From Candidatus Zixiibacteriota bacterium (GTDB taxonomy: Bacteria > Zixibacteria > MSB-5A5 > DSPP01), in the NCBI GenBank assembly GCA_022614805.1, contig JAKEHY010000016.1, positions 14,013 through 78,012 on the forward strand: a DNA stretch of 64,000 bases, given 5' to 3'. How positions within the stretch are numbered: the stretch's first letter is position 1; the number at the start of each line of letters is the position of its first letter. The position numbers were made by a program, and so were the translations under genes. Positions 49,854 through 59,018 of the stretch are shown piece by piece. Under the pieces are notes generated by a model. The model worked only from the letters and a program-made list of their open reading frames with translations. It had not been told where the DNA came from and searched no databases.

Positions 49854-51866
49854 TTATTCAATTTTCTGCAAGGCAATCGATTTAATTTCAAATGCATCCC
49901 CAATTTGTATCTGGTCCACCACATCCATTCCATTCACGACCCGGCCAAATATAGTATATCGCCCGTCCAGATGGGGCTGGGGGGCGTGGCAAATAAAAAA
50001 CTGGCTTCCGCCGGTATCCTTCCCGGAAAGCGCCATTCCCACCGTTCCCCGCTCGTAGGTCAGGCCGTTGTATTCGCAGCGGATGGTGTATCCCGGCCCC
50101 CCCCAGCCGTCCCCCCGGTTGCAGCCGTCCTGCACCACAAAGTTGGGGACGACCCGGTGGAAGGCCCGCCCGCTGAAGTATCCCTTGGCGCACAAAAGCC
50201 AAAAGTTGGCCGCCGTGCGGGGAGCCCGGTCCCCCAAAAGCTCGATGGTCACGTCTCCCTCTTCGGTCGCCAGGGTGACGAAAACGTGATACTCCTGCAA
50301 ACGGTGAACGTAATCCAGAATCGAATCCTCCTGAATAGTAGGCCGAAACGTCCCCAGCCGGTGGGAAAAATCCCGGCCGGCCGATTTCCCCAATTCAATC
50401 GCTTTTTTGCGAATCAGCCGGTCCGGGTCGGCCAAACCCATCCTCAAAAGCGAATCCACCCGCTCATCACCTTTGGCCGCCGCGCCCGAATCGACTAAAA
50501 CCTTGGCCGCATCCAGCCAGGAAAGCTTGAAGTCGATTTCCTTCTCGTTGATGTTTTTTTGATATACTTCGACAATATCTGAAAGCATCGACGTATCCTT
50601 GCGCACCCCGATGATTTCACAGGCCGTTGCCGCCATCGCAAAATCATCGCTGCCAAGCCCCGTCTGCAAATACGGCCGCAGGTCTTTGTCTTTATATTCT
50701 CCCATCCCTCCCAACGCGGCGTATCGTACCCGATAGTCGGGGTCGCTGATGAGTTTCTTCAAGACTTCAAAGGCCTCTGCCTGTCCGACGGTTCCAAGCC
50801 CTTCCGCCGCCTTGGCCCGCACCCGCCACTCCTCATCTGTGGCCAGCCTGTCCAGGTCCTTGACCACCGCGGCGCTTTTGTACGAGGCCAGAGCCACAGC
50901 CGCCCAGGCCCGCAGAAATGTCTCCGGACGCTTGGCCAGCCGTCGCAGCAGCTCTGTCCCCGCTGCATCCTTGAGCGTTCCCAAGGCCATTGCCGCTTCG
51001 ACTGTCAGATGATAGTTCGGCTGCCGCTTCGCCAGTTCTTCGGTCAAGATTCTTCTCAAAACCGGCGCCTGTCCGGTCGCCTCCATCGCCGCCAGGGCCC
51101 GACAGGCGTTCACCCGAACCTTCCAATCCGGGTCGGCCTGCACCAGCCCGGCCACCTCCGGGGCCGCCTGTTTAACTTTCAATGCGCCAAGTGGACGTAC
51201 CACTTGTGCGCGCACATAGCCGTCCGCATCGTTAATCGATTGTTGCAAAGCCGAAATGGCGGCCGAATCCGGAAAACGGGCCAAAGACCAGGCCGCCCCG
51301 AAGCGCACCCGGGGAACCGAATCGGAAAGCAGGTAGGACAGACCGGGCGTAAGCCGTCGGCTCTTGAACTTCCAGGCCGAAACCGCCGCGGCGTACCGGA
51401 CAGTCGGACTTTGATGTAAAAGCAACTTGTCAACAATGGGCACCGAGCCGCTGTCCGCGAGCTTGGCAAGCGCCTCCACCGCTCCGGCCGCCAGCTCCGG
51501 CGGCCCGTCCAAAGCCGCTTCCTCCAAGGCCAGGCGCCCCTTTTTTCCCCCCATCTGGCCCAAAGCAAAAGCCGCCTCGGACGAAATCCGGTAGCCCCGG
51601 AATTTCAGGATGGGAATGAGGACCTCGGCGGTCAGGGTGTCCCCGATGATGCCCAATGTCCGCACGGTGCGGAGGGCCAGTTCCGAATTCGGGTCGGCAT
51701 TCGCGAGGGTGATAAAGCGGGCCGCCTGCGGCCAGTTGACGGCCGAACTGTCCTCCATCATCAAAAGAGAATCATACTCCGCCCGCCAGGCAGATTTTGC
51801 CCCAGACTCCTCAAAAAAAGCGAACATCGCTGCCAGAAAGAGAAAGTAGGGGGGTTTTACCTTCAC
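49854..51866 (-). CDS. HEAT-repeat protein with C-terminal cyclophilin domain
   Basis: A 670-residue exported protein. The N-terminus (GTG start) has a hydrophobic segment ([19 protein letters not shown]). Residues about 50-490 are HEAT/PBS-like helical repeats ([52 protein letters not shown]). The last 160 residues are a peptidyl-prolyl isomerase: [53 protein letters not shown] and [19 protein letters not shown]. The active-site Arg and Phe are present, so it should be active. A periplasmic folding scaffold is inferred. Confidence 0.9.
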
Positions 51867-51977: not shown

Positions 51978-52154
51978 ATGAAGCGGCATCTTTGGCTGAC
52001 CATAGGGGCAACTGTCCTTTTTTATTTTGAAGCCGGCTTGCAGGCCCAACCGGCCTACCAGCGGGGAGTTTCCGCCATACCTGCTACCGACCCCGCCGGA
52101 CCCGCATTCTGGCCCACTTCCGATCCGGTGTTGGAAAAGCTACACCGAATTTAG
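51978..52154 (+). pseudogene. Orphan signal-peptide ORF, possible 5' fragment
   Basis: A 58-codon ORF beginning with a signal peptide (MKRHLWLTIGATVLFYFEAG) and ending abruptly after FWPTSDPVLEKLHRI. The mature part is only about 35 residues with no known domain. It reads like the first part of a longer exported protein, cut just before the operon at 52285. It could also be a genuine small secreted peptide. Confidence 0.4.
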
Positions 52155-52284: not shown

Positions 52285-52731
52285 ATGCCGGAAATTAAGC
52301 TGATTGAACTCCATATGGCTTCAGCCCATTTTCCAATTGCACTGCTTATGTCGAACGCCTTTTTCGACGTGGCCGGGCGTTTGTTGAAAAGGCAGGCGTT
52401 GCGCACTACATCCTATTGGATTCACCTTCTCGGGGTTATATCAGCGGTGGTGACGATTCTCTTAGGAGCTTTGGGAAACCCTTATCTGGAAGATGTAGGT
52501 CTTTTGGGGAATCCTTGGACAGATTATGGCAATAAAATGACCCAGAAGGCGGTTCAACACTCCTGGTTCGGAATCGTTAGCTTCCTGTTATTTGCCGTTC
52601 TGGCGGTCTGGCGGGTAAAAAGGAAGGATGAGTTCTTGAGAGCCGAATTGGGTATCTATCTGTTTGCCACGGGAGTGGGCGTTGCCCTGCTCGGGCTGAC
52701 AGGCTATCTTGGCAGTCACGTGATGGATTAA
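52285..52731 (+). CDS. DUF2231-like four-helix membrane protein
   Basis: A 148-residue membrane protein with four helices. IELHMASAHFPIALLMSNAFFDVAG starts the DUF2231 pattern with a histidine in helix 1, and WIHLLGVISAVVTILLGALG, HSWFGIVSFLLFAVLAVW and LLGLTGYLGSHVMD follow, each helix carrying or flanked by a His. DUF2231 proteins are thought to be haem or metal-handling membrane proteins. The ATG at 52285 has AGGAGG ten bases upstream. First gene of a four-gene operon with two secreted cysteine-rich proteins and a barrel. Confidence 0.82.
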   Translation: MPEIKLIELHMASAHFPIALLMSNAFFDVAGRLLKRQALRTTSYWIHLLGVISAVVTILLGALGNPYLEDVGLLGNPWTDYGNKMTQKAVQHSWFGIVSFLLFAVLAVWRVKRKDEFLRAELGIYLFATGVGVALLGLTGYLGSHVMD

Positions 52732-52767
52732 AGTGAAACTAAAAACCAAAAAAACAAAGGAGGAAAT

Positions 52768-53280
52768 ATGAAGAACAGGTTGGTTGGAAAGATTTGGCTT
52801 GGTGCGCTCGCCATTCTGCTGGCGTTTGCACCTGCCCGTTCTGGGCGGGCCCACGAAGCTAAATGCCCGCACTGTGAGGCTGACGTGGCTCAAGACACAC
52901 CGGAGCAGGACAACGAGGTGGCCTTGAAGTACGGGAAAAAGCGGATCGAGTACCGTTGCGTGATGTGCGCCATCGCGGACGCCGAGAAATCCTACAAGGG
53001 AGATTTGAAAATTCTGGCGCCAAGCGAGAAAAAAGGGAAACCGGTTGAAATTTCCCGCATAGAGGGAAAGTGGTCCGCGCCGGAGAGCACGGTGTTCATC
53101 GGCCACAAAATAAAGCACCGCTATTGCGAAAGGGGCTACCGGGCTTTCACCACGATGGCCGCCTTCACGGTGCACGTGGAAAAGAACAAGGCGCAGCTGA
53201 AGGGCGCCAAGCCCATAACGCTTGCCGAAATCGTCCAGATCGCTAAAAGCGACGTGGTTGAAGACAAAAAGGAGAAGTAA
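52768..53280 (+). CDS. Secreted five-cysteine-domain protein, NosL-like candidate
   Basis: A 170-residue exported protein. The signal peptide runs to about residue 28 (IWLGALAILLAFAPARSGRA). The mature part has C33-x-H-C36, then YRCVMCA (C64, C67), and KHRYCERGYRAF (C120). The same framework, with spacings 27, 2 and 53, recurs in the C-terminus of the 540-residue neighbour. The C-x2-C/late Cys layout recalls copper-binding NosL proteins, but no NosL match can be proven by eye. AAAGGAGGAAAT precedes the ATG. Metal or persulfide binding in the periplasm is inferred. Confidence 0.72.
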   Translation: MKNRLVGKIWLGALAILLAFAPARSGRAHEAKCPHCEADVAQDTPEQDNEVALKYGKKRIEYRCVMCAIADAEKSYKGDLKILAPSEKKGKPVEISRIEGKWSAPESTVFIGHKIKHRYCERGYRAFTTMAAFTVHVEKNKAQLKGAKPITLAEIVQIAKSDVVEDKKEK

Positions 53281-53283
53281 ATC

Positions 53284-54906
53284 ATGCATTCTCTGACCCG
53301 CTTTTGGGTGACCCTTTTGATGGCCTTGGGTTGGGCTTTCAGTTCCTTGGCGCAAGCACAAACAGAACCCTTGCCCAAGAGGGAGGGCATTCCCGGGAGG
53401 GAGGAGGCGCCGGGCCTCAATACCCTTCCACCTTTGCCGGAGGACCTGCCCGGTTGGTTTAACAACAAGGGAAAAAACCATATTTTCTATAAGCGGGGAC
53501 CTTACAACTTTGACATCTATAACATCAAGCGCCTGGCCTATGACCTTAACGCCGTGGCCGTGGGGCATTCCATGGCCTATGAGGATATGGTTACAGGCAA
53601 AGCCGCTGGTCTGGATACCGAGACCTTTGAACGGATCAATTGGGTTCTCAACCACCCCCCGAAGTTTATGCCGGATGAAGCCAACGTCTCCCCCACCTTT
53701 GGGCGGAAATACGGGGTGCTGGAGTTGGTATTTGACTGGACCCACATCCTGCACGCCCAGACCGTTGACGTGCTGGCCAGCACAAAACTTTCCGAAGCTG
53801 AGAAGGACAGGGAAATTCAGGCGCTCTGGAAGTTTTACTTTGAGAGCGTGCCCTACGCCATTTCACCTTTGCCGATGAATATGGCGTTTCTGGACGGCCA
53901 GCCCTACAGCATGGCTTTCCGAAATAAATATCCCAAAGTAAACGGGCTTTTCTGGGGTTATCACTGGTTGCAGGGGGCGATGTACGACATGCTCTTGAGC
54001 AAGACCTTGCCTCAGCAAAGAATGATCTATGATGTGCTGGGCGACCGCTACCATGCTATTGAGTTATATCGAACCAACCGCCCGTTTATGCCGATGTTCG
54101 CCGAGACCAGCCCCCGGTTTTCGGAAAAGTATCCCTACATCGCCAACGCCTTCGATAACCTGCATATGCTGCACGATATGGTGAACGACATTCTGGCATC
54201 CGACTGGATACCGGAACCGGAGAAAGAGAAACAGATTCTCCGGGCCATCTGGATTGCTTCCGCCACCGCCCACCAAGGGGAAAGGCCGGGTGATGTGAAG
54301 GAAGAGGGCGGCCTGCACGACCACCGGCATATGGTCGGTATGCCCGGGATGGGAATGATGAAGTATGCTACGGAGGACGTGATGTGGATGGACAACATGG
54401 GCTGGATGCCGACCGGGGACTGCCATCACTGCACTATGCCGCTGCCCGAAGGGGAGGAGGCCTGGAAAGCTCCCACCGTCTCGGCCCAAGGGTGGACGAT
54501 GCGTGTCCGCTGCCCGCTTTGCGCCCGGGACATGGCGGCTGAAACCAAGGGCGCGGTCATTTTCCACATCCCGACCGAAGACCCGCTGAAACCTGTGGTC
54601 ATCATCTCTGACGAACAGGGGAATTTGACGACGGACAACCCGGGAGTTCTGTTTCTGGAGGAAGCAGCGAGCCACAGAAAATGCAATCGCTGGTCTTCGG
54701 CTTTCTCCTCCCGGAAGGCCTTCGAAGAGTATGTCGCCACTAATCCAGAATTTAAGGACGCAAAGCCCCTTTCTTTTGAAGAGTGGGCGGCAGTCGAAGT
54801 CAGCGGCAAAAAACCGGACACTTACGTAAAACCCGAAGGGCCGGAAGGCAACCCTTACGACAAAGCTCAAGATGACGAAACTCAGGCGCAGAAAGAGGAG
54901 GAATAG
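53284..54906 (+). CDS. Large exported His/Cys-rich protein, uncharacterised
   Basis: A 540-residue protein with a signal peptide (FWVTLLMALGWAFSSLAQAQ). The middle holds three helix motifs of the pattern F-x3-H-x-L-[HQ]-x4-D-x-[LI]-[LA]-S: F150/H154/D162, F223/H227/D235 and F290/H294/D302. A Met/His stretch GGLHDHRHMVGMPGMGMMKY lies at about 340-360. The C-terminal domain has C380-HH-C383, RCPLCA (C410, C413) and SHRKC (C467), the framework of the preceding small protein. The end is acidic. No family is recognised. Histidine and cysteine placement suggests metal (copper?) or haem binding. Confidence 0.75.
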   Translation: MHSLTRFWVTLLMALGWAFSSLAQAQTEPLPKREGIPGREEAPGLNTLPPLPEDLPGWFNNKGKNHIFYKRGPYNFDIYNIKRLAYDLNAVAVGHSMAYEDMVTGKAAGLDTETFERINWVLNHPPKFMPDEANVSPTFGRKYGVLELVFDWTHILHAQTVDVLASTKLSEAEKDREIQALWKFYFESVPYAISPLPMNMAFLDGQPYSMAFRNKYPKVNGLFWGYHWLQGAMYDMLLSKTLPQQRMIYDVLGDRYHAIELYRTNRPFMPMFAETSPRFSEKYPYIANAFDNLHMLHDMVNDILASDWIPEPEKEKQILRAIWIASATAHQGERPGDVKEEGGLHDHRHMVGMPGMGMMKYATEDVMWMDNMGWMPTGDCHHCTMPLPEGEEAWKAPTVSAQGWTMRVRCPLCARDMAAETKGAVIFHIPTEDPLKPVVIISDEQGNLTTDNPGVLFLEEAASHRKCNRWSSAFSSRKAFEEYVATNPEFKDAKPLSFEEWAAVEVSGKKPDTYVKPEGPEGNPYDKAQDDETQAQKEEE

Positions 54907-54909
54907 AAC

Positions 54910-55707
54910 ATGCGAATTCGCCTTCTGGCTAATGCTTGGCTGCCGCTGGTTCTCTTTCTTTCTGCACACTCGTCACTCCGCGCGGTTGACCACAACAATG
55001 TGGATGCCGGGCGGCCCTTAAGTTTTGATGACGCGGAGGCAATCGCTTTTCGAGAGCGTGCCGCCGAGATAGGAACGGGTGGAATTTACCCGAAGGGTGG
55101 CCCGGCGGGACTTGCCTTCAGCACGGAGTTTCTTTACGGTTTTGCGCTCAATTCTCATTTGAGTGTCGATTTGGACGCCGCTGCTGGCGGCCGAGCCGGA
55201 ACGCCCGAGAAGGATTTCCAAGTTGGCAAGTTGGGTCTCGGCCTTTTTCACAATTTCAACCGAGAATACGGCAATGCCCCCGCCTTCTCGATTCGAGGCG
55301 ATGTGGCCCTGCCCACTGAGAAAGGGGCAAAAGGTGTTGAAATCCGTTTGCGGGGGATTGCTAGTAAGGCGCTGATTCAGTACGACCGTCTTCATCTAAA
55401 TCTGGACGGCATTGTAACTACCGCTCCCGAGACCGGTGAAAGGCGATTTCGGCCGGGAGTCGTCCTCGGCTACTCCAAACCAATCGGTTATCCCCGCAGT
55501 TTCATTCGCACGGGCGTGGCCGAGGTATCTCTTCAAACCCCGGAACAAAAGGGAACGGGGCCAGTGATGTCTTTGGGGGTAGGACTCCGCCAGCAAGTCA
55601 CCGTTCGCTCCCTATTCGACATTGGAATCCGGTCGGATGTCTTAGCCCTGGACAAAGCGCCACACGAAGATATCCAGATTATAGCCGGCTTTTCTACAAG
55701 TTTCTGA
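54910..55707 (+). CDS. Outer-membrane beta-barrel protein
   Basis: A 265-residue exported protein with a signal peptide, a conserved-looking N-terminal plug-like stretch (DAGRPLSFDDAEAIAFRERAAEIG) and amphipathic strands to a C-terminal FSTSF, as in outer-membrane transporters. Strands such as LGLFHNFNREYGNAPAFSI and RFRPGVVLGYSKPIGYPR support a barrel. It is the last gene of the four-gene operon, four bases after the large His/Cys protein; it could be the exit or entry pore for whatever the operon handles. Confidence 0.72.
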   Translation: MRIRLLANAWLPLVLFLSAHSSLRAVDHNNVDAGRPLSFDDAEAIAFRERAAEIGTGGIYPKGGPAGLAFSTEFLYGFALNSHLSVDLDAAAGGRAGTPEKDFQVGKLGLGLFHNFNREYGNAPAFSIRGDVALPTEKGAKGVEIRLRGIASKALIQYDRLHLNLDGIVTTAPETGERRFRPGVVLGYSKPIGYPRSFIRTGVAEVSLQTPEQKGTGPVMSLGVGLRQQVTVRSLFDIGIRSDVLALDKAPHEDIQIIAGFSTSF

Positions 55708-55722
55708 CTGTTTTTCAATTAA

Positions 55723-55803
55723 CTACTTCTTCCCAAAAATCTTATGCAACACCCACCGCACCGGGTCGAAAAACCAGTAGGCCAAGTGCTTCCCATTCCT
55801 GCC
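55723..55803 (-). pseudogene. 3' fragment of an unknown minus-strand gene
   Basis: On the minus strand the frame reads GKHLAYWFFDPVRWVLHKI then FGKK and TAG (55723-55725). The aromatic-rich, basic end looks like the C-terminus of a real protein, but no start or upstream part exists on this side, where the YVTN remnant follows. It is probably debris of a rearrangement. Confidence 0.45.
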
Positions 55804-55806
55804 CTA

Positions 55807-55953
55807 GACGTTTTCAGCTTGGTATATCTAAACTGTGAAGGGAATCACGTTTCACCGTATAAGGTTTATGTGGTCAACACAATTGCCAAAACAGTCGTAG
55901 ATACTATTGATGTAGGCCGATACCCCAACGGCATTGCAGTACTAAAACCCTGA
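55807..55953 (+). pseudogene. YVTN beta-propeller 3' fragment
   Basis: The last 48 codons of a plus-strand frame read VYLNCEGNHVSPYKVYVVNT and TVVDTIDVGRYPNGIAVL, the repeat style of YVTN/NHL seven-bladed beta-propellers. The rest of the propeller is missing; upstream the frame enters the minus-strand fragment. This is a truncated gene end. Confidence 0.6.
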
Positions 55954-55975
55954 AGTTTGGAAAAAAGGAGTTTAA

Positions 55976-56024: not shown

Positions 56025-59018
56025 ATGAAAAGGGTTCTGCTTTTCTTTTTTTTCTTAACTCCTTCTCTCGCTTACCCAAAGGCGGCCATAGACCCCCGCT
56101 TGCAGGCGCAATTGGATTCGCTTCCTGTGCAAGGGGTTATCGAGGCGTTTCTGGTGGTGAAAAACCGAGCCCCCATCGGATTTTTAAAGGCCTCCCTGCC
56201 GGACGCCACCCGCCAGAAACTGCACACCGAAGTGGTCAACCGCTTGAAGGAGACCGCCTCAAAGCAACAGGCCCAACTGCGTGCCCATCTTGCTTCTGAA
56301 AAGGGGCTTGGTCGCGTCTTAGATTTCAAAAGCTACTGGATTGACAATTACGTTTTCGTCCGCTGCACAAAGGAAACACTGTTAAAGCTGGCCGAGCGGG
56401 GCGACGTCACCGAAATATTCGAAAATCCCAAGTTGATTTTAGTTGCACCGGTCCAGGAAAGCGTGGCAGTTCCCGTTATTCCGACGACCTTCAACGTTAC
56501 CGGCCGGGCCCAGCGCAACCTCGTAGCCATAGGCTGCCGCCAGATGTGGAAGCGCGGGCTGACCGGCAAAGGGCGGCTCGTATGCACGCTGGATACCGGC
56601 ATCGACGGCAACCATCGCTCCTTCAAAACCCGCTGGCGCGGAAACCGGCCGGGAATCAGCCACGAGGCCGCCTGGTTTGACCCGGTCCAAAGCCGTCCCT
56701 TTCCGCATACGTACTCTATAACCCAAACCACCCGCAATCACGGCACTCACGTTTTGGGGATTATCTGCGGGCTGGATACGGCGCGAACCATAAGCCCAGA
56801 TTTAATGGATACTACCCTCTTTGTGGATACAATAGGCGTGGCACCGGAGGTGGAATGGATTTCGGCGGCGGTGATTGACAACGGCGCCAACGGCTCCGGA
56901 ATGCTGGATGCATTGGAATGGGCCGCCGACCCCGACGGCAACCCCAACACGGTGGAAGACGTCCCCGACGTGGTCAACAATTCCTGGGCCTATCCGACCG
57001 TTGGGATAGACAACAACCTAAGCTGTCATCCCTTCTTCTGGCAGGCAATTGATAATCTCGAGGCGGCCGGGGCCGTAGCGGTCTTCGCCGCCGGCAATCG
57101 TACCCACGTGTCATCTCGCAGCATCGGCAATCCGGCCGACCGGGGGACAGCCCCTTTTTCCAGCTTTGCCGTCGGCAATTTCGACATCGACACTGTAATT
57201 GTTGATTCCACCAACACCGATTCGGTGGTCGAAGTCACCGGCCTGGTGGCCAAATCCTCCTGCATCGGCCCGACCGAATGCGGTCCCGACAGCTTGAAAC
57301 CGGAGACGGTGGCCCCCGGCAGCTTCATTTATTCCTCCATTCCCGGAAATCTATTTAGCGTCTTTACGGGAACCTCGATGGCTTCGCCGCATGTGGCCGG
57401 AGCGGTCGCCCTGCTGCGGCAACACAATCCCAACGCCACGGTTGATGCCATCAAATCAGCGCTGGCCCTCTCTGCCACCGACGTTGAAGCCCCCGGGCCG
57501 GACACCATCTCCGGCTTCGGGCTGATTAACCTGCCGAAAGCGCTGACTTTAATGCCTCCCAACCAAGGTATTCACGTTTACGTTCAAAAAGACAGCATTG
57601 CCGACGCCGCCGGCCAGAGGCCGTATGCCGGCGGAATTTTCAAAATCTATTTGACTCTTTCCAACAATGGGGTGGAGACTACCTATGACCTGGCTGGCCG
57701 TTTGAGTCCGTCCGATGCTAAAAGCACCGTCTTGCAGGATTCTGTTTTCTGGGGCGACCTGCCTCCCGGCGGCGCCGCTTCCAACCCGCAGGAACCCTTT
57801 CAAGTCCAACTGGCATCCGGGCTAATCCCGGGAGAGACCTTTCGTTTCAACCTGGACCTGTCCGGCGCCAACGGCTTTACGCAGACCCTGAATCTTACCT
57901 TTCCCGTAGGGGAACGCTTGGTCAAAAATCTCTACCATCATCGCAACGGAAACGTGGAGTTCACCCTCTCCAATTTCGGCGGGTACGGTTTTGAAGCGGG
58001 GAGTCTGGAGATGCGTTCCCTCCCTGTCTTTGACGAGGGGTTGGGCTTTGAAAGAAAGACCGAATTAAAAGTAAGCCGCCTTTTCGAGGCTTCTTTCATC
58101 GCCGGAGTGAACGATTCGATGGTTTCCAACCATGCCTCCAACGACTTCTGCTGCTTTCCCCAAGTGCTTCAAACTCCGGATGCCGATTTTGCCGTTCATC
58201 CGGGCGGAAACTTGCAAATCCTGGAGCCGGGGCCGGCGGGTGGAAACGAAACTTTTTCCATCTTTGACGACCGTCTGGCCAAATATCCGCTCGGTTTGGC
58301 AGTGGCACAAAAAAGCTACAGCTACGACAGCATCGGGCAGGACAACTTCGTGCTTTTGGAATTCACTCTGAAGAACGGAAGTAGCTCCACTTTGGACGGT
58401 CTGCGAGCCGGGCTTTTCTTCGACTTCAACTTCTTTTCCCTGACGGCTCAATATCTGGGGGACCTAGCCGGTTTTGACCGTAGCCTCCAGTTGGGTTACC
58501 AGTACAACGACTCTTCTCCCGCCTATCGGGGCATCGCCGCCGCCGATACGGGAGGGCTTTCCACCTTTAACGCCGTGCGAATTTTCCCCGGTGTGTCGGA
58601 TGGTTTCACGCTGGCGGAAAAATGGCAGGTCTTAAGCTCCGGGTTTGCGGATACCGCCATTTCTTCTCCGATTGATGGGGCGATGCTGGCAGCCAAAGGG
58701 CCGTTTTCCCTCCCGCCCGGGGATTCCGTAAAAATCGCCTTTGCCCTCGTGGCGGCAACGACTTTGGACAGCTTGAAAACTTACACCCAGACCGCCCAGA
58801 ACATCTACCGCCGGCTCACTTCTGCCAGGGGGGACGTCAACTTTGACGGCCGCTTCAGCGGGGCTGACGTGGTAACGGAGATTTACTGCGTCTTTCTCAA
58901 CCAAGGGAATTGTCCCCTCGAGCGTGCCGATATGAACTGCGACGGGATGGTTACGGCCAATGACATCATATATTTAATTAACCGCGTCTTCCTGGAAATT
59001 CCACCCCTCTGTCCTTGA
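56025..59018 (+). CDS. Secreted S8 subtilase with dockerin-like C-terminus
   Basis: A 997-residue serine protease. After a signal peptide (VLLFFFFLTPSLAYPKA), an inhibitor-like propeptide runs to about 130. The catalytic triad is D190 (LDTGIDGNH), H239 (NHGTHVLG) and S451 (GTSMASPHVAGA). Residues about 530-930 are a beta-rich extension, and the end holds two Ca-binding-type repeats, GDVNFDGRFSGADVV and ADMNCDGMVTANDII, with a LINRVFL helix. Such dockerin-like ends are used in several candidate phyla for surface assembly. It may be translated by coupling with the leader ORF at 55976. Confidence 0.92.
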   Translation: MKRVLLFFFFLTPSLAYPKAAIDPRLQAQLDSLPVQGVIEAFLVVKNRAPIGFLKASLPDATRQKLHTEVVNRLKETASKQQAQLRAHLASEKGLGRVLDFKSYWIDNYVFVRCTKETLLKLAERGDVTEIFENPKLILVAPVQESVAVPVIPTTFNVTGRAQRNLVAIGCRQMWKRGLTGKGRLVCTLDTGIDGNHRSFKTRWRGNRPGISHEAAWFDPVQSRPFPHTYSITQTTRNHGTHVLGIICGLDTARTISPDLMDTTLFVDTIGVAPEVEWISAAVIDNGANGSGMLDALEWAADPDGNPNTVEDVPDVVNNSWAYPTVGIDNNLSCHPFFWQAIDNLEAAGAVAVFAAGNRTHVSSRSIGNPADRGTAPFSSFAVGNFDIDTVIVDSTNTDSVVEVTGLVAKSSCIGPTECGPDSLKPETVAPGSFIYSSIPGNLFSVFTGTSMASPHVAGAVALLRQHNPNATVDAIKSALALSATDVEAPGPDTISGFGLINLPKALTLMPPNQGIHVYVQKDSIADAAGQRPYAGGIFKIYLTLSNNGVETTYDLAGRLSPSDAKSTVLQDSVFWGDLPPGGAASNPQEPFQVQLASGLIPGETFRFNLDLSGANGFTQTLNLTFPVGERLVKNLYHHRNGNVEFTLSNFGGYGFEAGSLEMRSLPVFDEGLGFERKTELKVSRLFEASFIAGVNDSMVSNHASNDFCCFPQVLQTPDADFAVHPGGNLQILEPGPAGGNETFSIFDDRLAKYPLGLAVAQKSYSYDSIGQDNFVLLEFTLKNGSSSTLDGLRAGLFFDFNFFSLTAQYLGDLAGFDRSLQLGYQYNDSSPAYRGIAAADTGGLSTFNAVRIFPGVSDGFTLAEKWQVLSSGFADTAISSPIDGAMLAAKGPFSLPPGDSVKIAFALVAATTLDSLKTYTQTAQNIYRRLTSARGDVNFDGRFSGADVVTEIYCVFLNQGNCPLERADMNCDGMVTANDIIYLINRVFLEIPPLCP

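Follow-up and report, generated by a model that had tools for sequence, protein, structure and literature searches.

The closest described counterparts of the operon analysed here are the Pco/Cop copper-resistance systems, which comprise PcoA, a multicopper oxidase, and PcoB, an outer-membrane barrel (PMC7558416; PMC12509749), and where PcoA is stabilised by the N-terminal domain of PcoB (PMC12509749). At the level of predicted fold, the relevant proteins are MerB, the organomercurial lyase, and NosL, a Cu(I) protein (PMC7558416). These two share structure according to Taubner 2006, as cited in PMC8261052, whose reference list also names a report on a copper-binding MerB mutant (Wahba 2016). 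The operon lies in a stretch of 64,000 nucleotides from a Candidatus Zixiibacteriota bacterium, referred to in full as the window, and has the following features, with the basis of each assignment in parentheses:

52285-52731, + strand: P1, DUF2231 inner-membrane protein, an optional accessory (148 aa, ATG start; Pfam PF09990)
52768-53280, + strand: P2, exported Cys protein of predicted MerB/NosL fold (170 aa; alignment of 29 relatives, AlphaFold2 model)
53284-54906, + strand: P3, exported two-domain protein (540 aa; 55 related loci, alignment, AlphaFold2 model)
53416-54363, + strand: P3 core, residues ~45-360, two-repeat helical domain (conserved His, AlphaFold2 model)
54409-54801, + strand: P3 C-domain, residues ~376-506, predicted MerB/NosL fold (structure matches, homology to P2)
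54910-55707, + strand: P4, probable outer-membrane beta-barrel and partner of P3 (265 aa; PF13557 matches in relatives, linkage)

An earlier note on this DNA had described four tightly packed genes, each with a ribosome binding site, whose products are all exported or membrane-bound, and this description held. The genes all lie on the + strand, 36, 3 and 3 bp apart, and every start codon has a purine-rich Shine-Dalgarno sequence ahead of it; for P1, a TTG start 9 bp upstream of the ATG at 52285 is also possible. P1 is a DUF2231 membrane protein, and the N termini of P2, P3 and P4 resemble signal peptides on inspection of the sequences. Chance open reading frames can be excluded, because the set is conserved in unrelated phyla. 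Upstream of P1 there is a short palindrome, which by eye does not exceed chance.

Profile searches of all four proteins, as proposed in the earlier note, assigned P1 alone, a member of PF09990 (DUF2231) with an E value of 9e-16 and 58.6 bits against a curated cut-off of 26.4, whereas P2, P3 and P4 stayed below the cut-offs of Pfam and NCBIfam. The suspicion that this is not a known system was therefore borne out, as no library searched names P2, P3 or P4. Likewise, no description of the P1-P4 set was found in the literature covered, most subscription-journal literature lying outside the search.

Because related sets are found in several unrelated phyla, frequently near genes for copper export, P1-P4 would probably represent an undescribed copper-protection system, with a logic like that of Pco/Cop and different parts. 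The likenesses are as follows. First, an exported protein with copper-type motifs adjoins an outer-membrane barrel within one operon. Second, copper pumps are encoded near many P3-P4 relatives, and Met/His-rich segments occur. Third, P3 from Methylobacterium has a Tat-like signal, again as read from its sequence. The differences concern the proteins themselves. P3 is not a multicopper oxidase: it has no Cu-oxidase match, no PcoA-type multicopper oxidase was found in the operon, and the HCH-type motif of these enzymes occurs in no open reading frame of the related loci; two Cu-oxidase_3 matches are found elsewhere in the window's genome. No CopB/PcoB model matches P4, neither PcoC nor PcoD could be recognised, and P2 and P3 carry domains of predicted MerB/NosL fold. 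The likeness to PcoA/PcoB is best seen as one of logic, not of ancestry, with an unrelated P3 apparently taking the place of the multicopper oxidase.

Relatives of P3 were sought in 85,000 genomes, yielding 55 loci in Armatimonadota, Cyanobacteriota and scattered Actinomycetota, Acidobacteriota and Chloroflexota MAGs; the taxonomy of the MAGs follows the titles of their records, and binning errors may be among them. P4 is the same-strand neighbour of P3 in each of the 54 loci in which it is visible (the contig of L036 ends within P3, and this locus was left out). The two genes are often translationally coupled, with a 4-nt overlap between the stop of P3 and the start of P4 in 31 of the 49 loci measured. 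All 33 loci that have the P3 C-domain and a contig reaching upstream also carry P2 as a gene of its own (L008 and L014, with contigs that start too late, were not counted), and the 20 loci whose P3 lacks this domain have no P2 gene. DUF2231 genes lie upstream of P2-P3-P4 in nine loci besides the window. Thus, the invariant core is P3-P4, P2 comes with the Cys domain of P3, and P1 is optional. The neighbourhood survey called for in the earlier note accordingly showed that the four genes do not form a fixed unit.

The same loci provided the context by which the earlier guess of copper came to be well supported, together with the predicted MerB/NosL fold and the Met/His-rich tails considered below. 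Genes for Cu(I)-type P-type ATPases, with CPC, YN and MxxSS motifs, are present in 25 of the 55 loci; 29 loci have one or more strong copper markers, 21 have two or more, and 26 have none within the DNA covered. Recurrent neighbours include a CsoR-family repressor (above the Pfam cut-off), a CopZ-like HMA protein, CopM/DUF305 (above the NCBIfam cut-off), a cupredoxin, a Csp-like DUF326 protein, and an RND pump with its adaptor. Upstream in most Armatimonadota loci, a gene encodes a protein that bears Cys and a YtkA-like domain, and in cyanobacterial loci a MerR-type regulator is often found upstream of P3. These regulators all score below the cut-offs of the MerR, CadR and CueR models, and of the two cysteines of CueR, the first is missing from them. 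The 55 loci are not independent, many being near relatives from Fimbriimonadaceae and Microcystis; the copper context appears separately in Cyanobacteriota, in Armatimonadota, and in the Acidobacteriota, Actinomycetota and Chloroflexota MAGs. In the window itself, the operon stands apart from any copper genes, and the Cu-type ATPases of its genome are encoded on other contigs (C1 and C30). A mercury-type cluster, with a MerT-HMA fusion and CsoR-type and MerR-type regulators, is also present in this genome (C17:101000-107000, L081). The 26 loci without markers, the kinship among the loci, the sub-threshold matches of the cyanobacterial regulators and the isolated position of the window operon speak against a copper role; on balance, we consider a link between the operon and copper to be likely.

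The two cysteine-domain proteins recognised in the earlier note proved to be related to each other, as P2 and P3 residues ~376-506 are homologous in a profile-profile comparison (probability 99.6, E 6.8e-24) and share the ligand motifs CxxC, CxxC and HxxC. In P2, the alignment of 29 relatives showed conservation of C33, C36, C64, C67, H117 and C120; in the P3 C-domain, the invariant residues are C380, H382, C383, C410, C413, D416, H464 and C467. AlphaFold2 models, with a mean pLDDT of 87.7 for P2 and 86.9 for P3, were compared with known structures using VIA-align, and MerB and NosL stood well above the other matches, with Z scores of 12.6 and 8.7 for P2 and of 11.6 and 7.2 for the P3 C-domain. 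The Foldseek E values of these matches are modest, from 1e-3 to 5e-3. Both domains are predicted to adopt the MerB/NosL fold.

P2 of the window matches neither the NosL (PF05573) nor the MerB (PF03243) model; no other Pfam or NCBIfam model reaches its cut-off, and a search of PDB sequences gave no credible relative. Among its 29 relatives, one matches PF05573, with an E value of 0.012, short of a family-model match, and 13 match PF03243 weakly (best E 1.5e-5). Profile alignment of P2 or of the P3 C-domain to a single MerB sequence was uninformative, and P2 matches to PHF5 and zinc-ribbon Pfam models were judged to be chance. Compared with NosL, a Cu(I) chaperone, and MerB, with which they would share a fold at Z 7-13, the two domains have only about 10% identity and their own ligand set, CxxC-CxxC-HxxC; moreover, their genetic linkage is to P3/P4 instead of nos or mer genes.

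The assignment of P4 as a probable outer-membrane barrel, also made in the earlier note, is supported by its relatives, 11 of 39 matching PF13557 (Phenol_MetA_deg barrel) at E <= 0.01 (best 5e-6). The window protein itself matches neither PF13557 nor any Pfam or NCBIfam model above cut-off, and has no credible relative among PDB sequences. When P4 and 38 relatives were searched against all of Pfam, PF13557 was the sole match, so that membership of the CopB/PcoB family was not found. Unlike the Phenol_MetA_deg family, the window P4 has an N-terminal DHNN...RPLxFDDA segment of its own, and linkage to P3. The PF13557 family is broad and says nothing about copper, which counts against the copper reading.

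With regard to P1, we know of no function assigned to the DUF2231 family (PF09990); this protein differs from other DUF2231 membrane proteins in being an optional part of the present set. In Armatimonadota (L017:8672-9484 and similar loci), several of the DUF2231 proteins upstream of P2-P3-P4 have an N-terminal fusion that carries a CxxCH haem-type motif. In the window's genome, the ATPase gene on C30, which encodes an HMBD-bearing P-type ATPase, adjoins a DUF2231-like gene that lies between it and an RND pump gene (C30:20000-28000, L082). This DUF2231-like gene scores below the Pfam cut-off, and the locus is a second metal context for DUF2231.

The P3 protein, which has no sequence match in Pfam, NCBIfam or the PDB, is modelled with a core of two homologous halves and four long helices (residues 82-103, 144-165, 217-237 and 284-305). 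Six invariant histidines, H95, H154, H157, H227, H294 and H297, are placed near the middles of these helices, and an HDH motif is found in the core at residues 345-347. The relative from Gemmatirosa keeps all six, H95 as judged by eye; in that of Methylobacterium, five align clearly and the position of H95 is uncertain. In the model, this arrangement would look like a buried metal site. It is tempting to speculate that with this core P3 founds a class of coupled dicopper proteins of its own, with pseudo-symmetric repeats contributing the triads H95+H154+H157 and H227+H294+H297 to a type-3-like site, which as a cuprous oxidase or oxygen-reacting protein would replace multicopper oxidases; we regard this as unlikely. 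Structural matches of the core to helical proteins (GPCRs and others, Z up to 4.2) were not credible, and ANIS5_cation-bd Pfam matches in three of 45 P3 relatives were judged to be chance.

In cyanobacterial P3 proteins, a Met/His-rich tail stands in place of the C-domain, with Met plus His reaching 27% against a background of 5% (best p 9e-13) and, in some, MPGMNH-type repeats. Such tails, the many conserved ligands and the Csp-like copper-storage protein gene near some loci would also suit a P3 that acts as a periplasmic copper sponge, for storage or buffering, with P4 merely an anchor or an unrelated porin and no export or oxidation. We consider this unlikely, as P3 and P4 stay together without a break from phylum to phylum, which suggests that they work jointly, and the core histidines are positioned in helices like a structured site. 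Copper acquisition, or supply to an enzyme such as an oxidase in the manner of NosL, with P4 as an uptake porin, could draw on the NosL fold of the Cys domains and on the nearby cupredoxin genes; this appears improbable given that the partner genes serve mainly efflux and stress (CopA, CsoR, RND, CopM). Mercury or organometal detoxification, in which the P3 C-domain would be a MerB-like lyase with C413, D416 and C467 standing for Cys96, Asp99 and Cys159, could appeal to MerB as the best fold match, the CxxD and later Cys of P3, the cyanobacterial MerR-type regulators and the mer-type cluster of the window's genome, and is highly improbable, since the C-domain is missing in 20 loci that retain P3-P4, the loci are surrounded by copper genes and not mer genes, and P2 has no constant Asp at the Asp99-like position.

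We therefore favour, with some confidence, an envelope copper-detoxification module. The analysis itself shows that the genes are linked, that copper genes lie around many of the loci, that a MerB/NosL fold is predicted for the Cys domains and that ligands are conserved; copper binding, the direction in which copper moves, its transport across the outer membrane, any oxidation or other redox step, and contact between P3 and P4 are inferred. In this module, CopA-type pumps would deliver Cu(I) to the periplasm, where it would be taken up by P2, as a carrier of NosL/MerB fold, and by P3 through its C-domain or Met/His tail. The six-His core of P3 would bind copper and perhaps oxidise it, P4 would either anchor P3 at the outer membrane or give copper an exit through it, and P1 would be an inner-membrane accessory.

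The distribution of the module suggests that it has spread horizontally, because it is patchy and because distant P3-P4 pairs (~30% identity) are found on Methylobacterium and Gemmatirosa plasmids, with the order reversed in Gemmatirosa, where P4 precedes P3. The P3 profile matched 45 of 291 genomes in the Armatimonadota set (a few by the Cys domain only or weakly) and eight of 386 in the cyanobacterial set. P3 was not found in 131 other genomes of the window's phylum, one of them of the same genus, and its vertical inheritance within the phylum was accordingly rejected; the same-genus genome lacks P3 and has a 73% identical relative of the subtilase next to the operon. In the P3 tree the window protein falls between groups with weak support, so no donor can be named.

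The genes flanking the operon look unrelated to P1-P4. On one side, an exported-looking HEAT-repeat protein is fused to a C-terminal cyclophilin peptidyl-prolyl isomerase domain (49854-51866, - strand); on the other, a subtilase with a C-terminal dockerin (56025-59018, + strand) is followed by a formamidopyrimidine-DNA glycosylase gene. The subtilase-dockerin protein has 58 matches in the same-genus genome, mostly to its dockerin-like end, hinting at a dockerin-rich exported proteome there. Two candidate gene remnants, one upstream in the form of a short frame that begins like a signal peptide (~51978-52154, + strand) and one downstream with a beta-propeller-like stretch (VVNTIAKTVVDTIDVGRYPNGIAVLKP, by eye; ~55800-55955, + strand), are possible insertion scars on both sides of the operon.

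With its six-His core, P3 is an exported protein conserved in several phyla that has no Pfam entry. The P1-P4 set would place the MerB/NosL fold beyond mer and nos operons, and it provides DUF2231 with a likely context. Bloom-forming cyanobacteria of the genus Microcystis, as well as Armatimonadota and other bacteria, may depend for copper protection on a route missed by current annotation.
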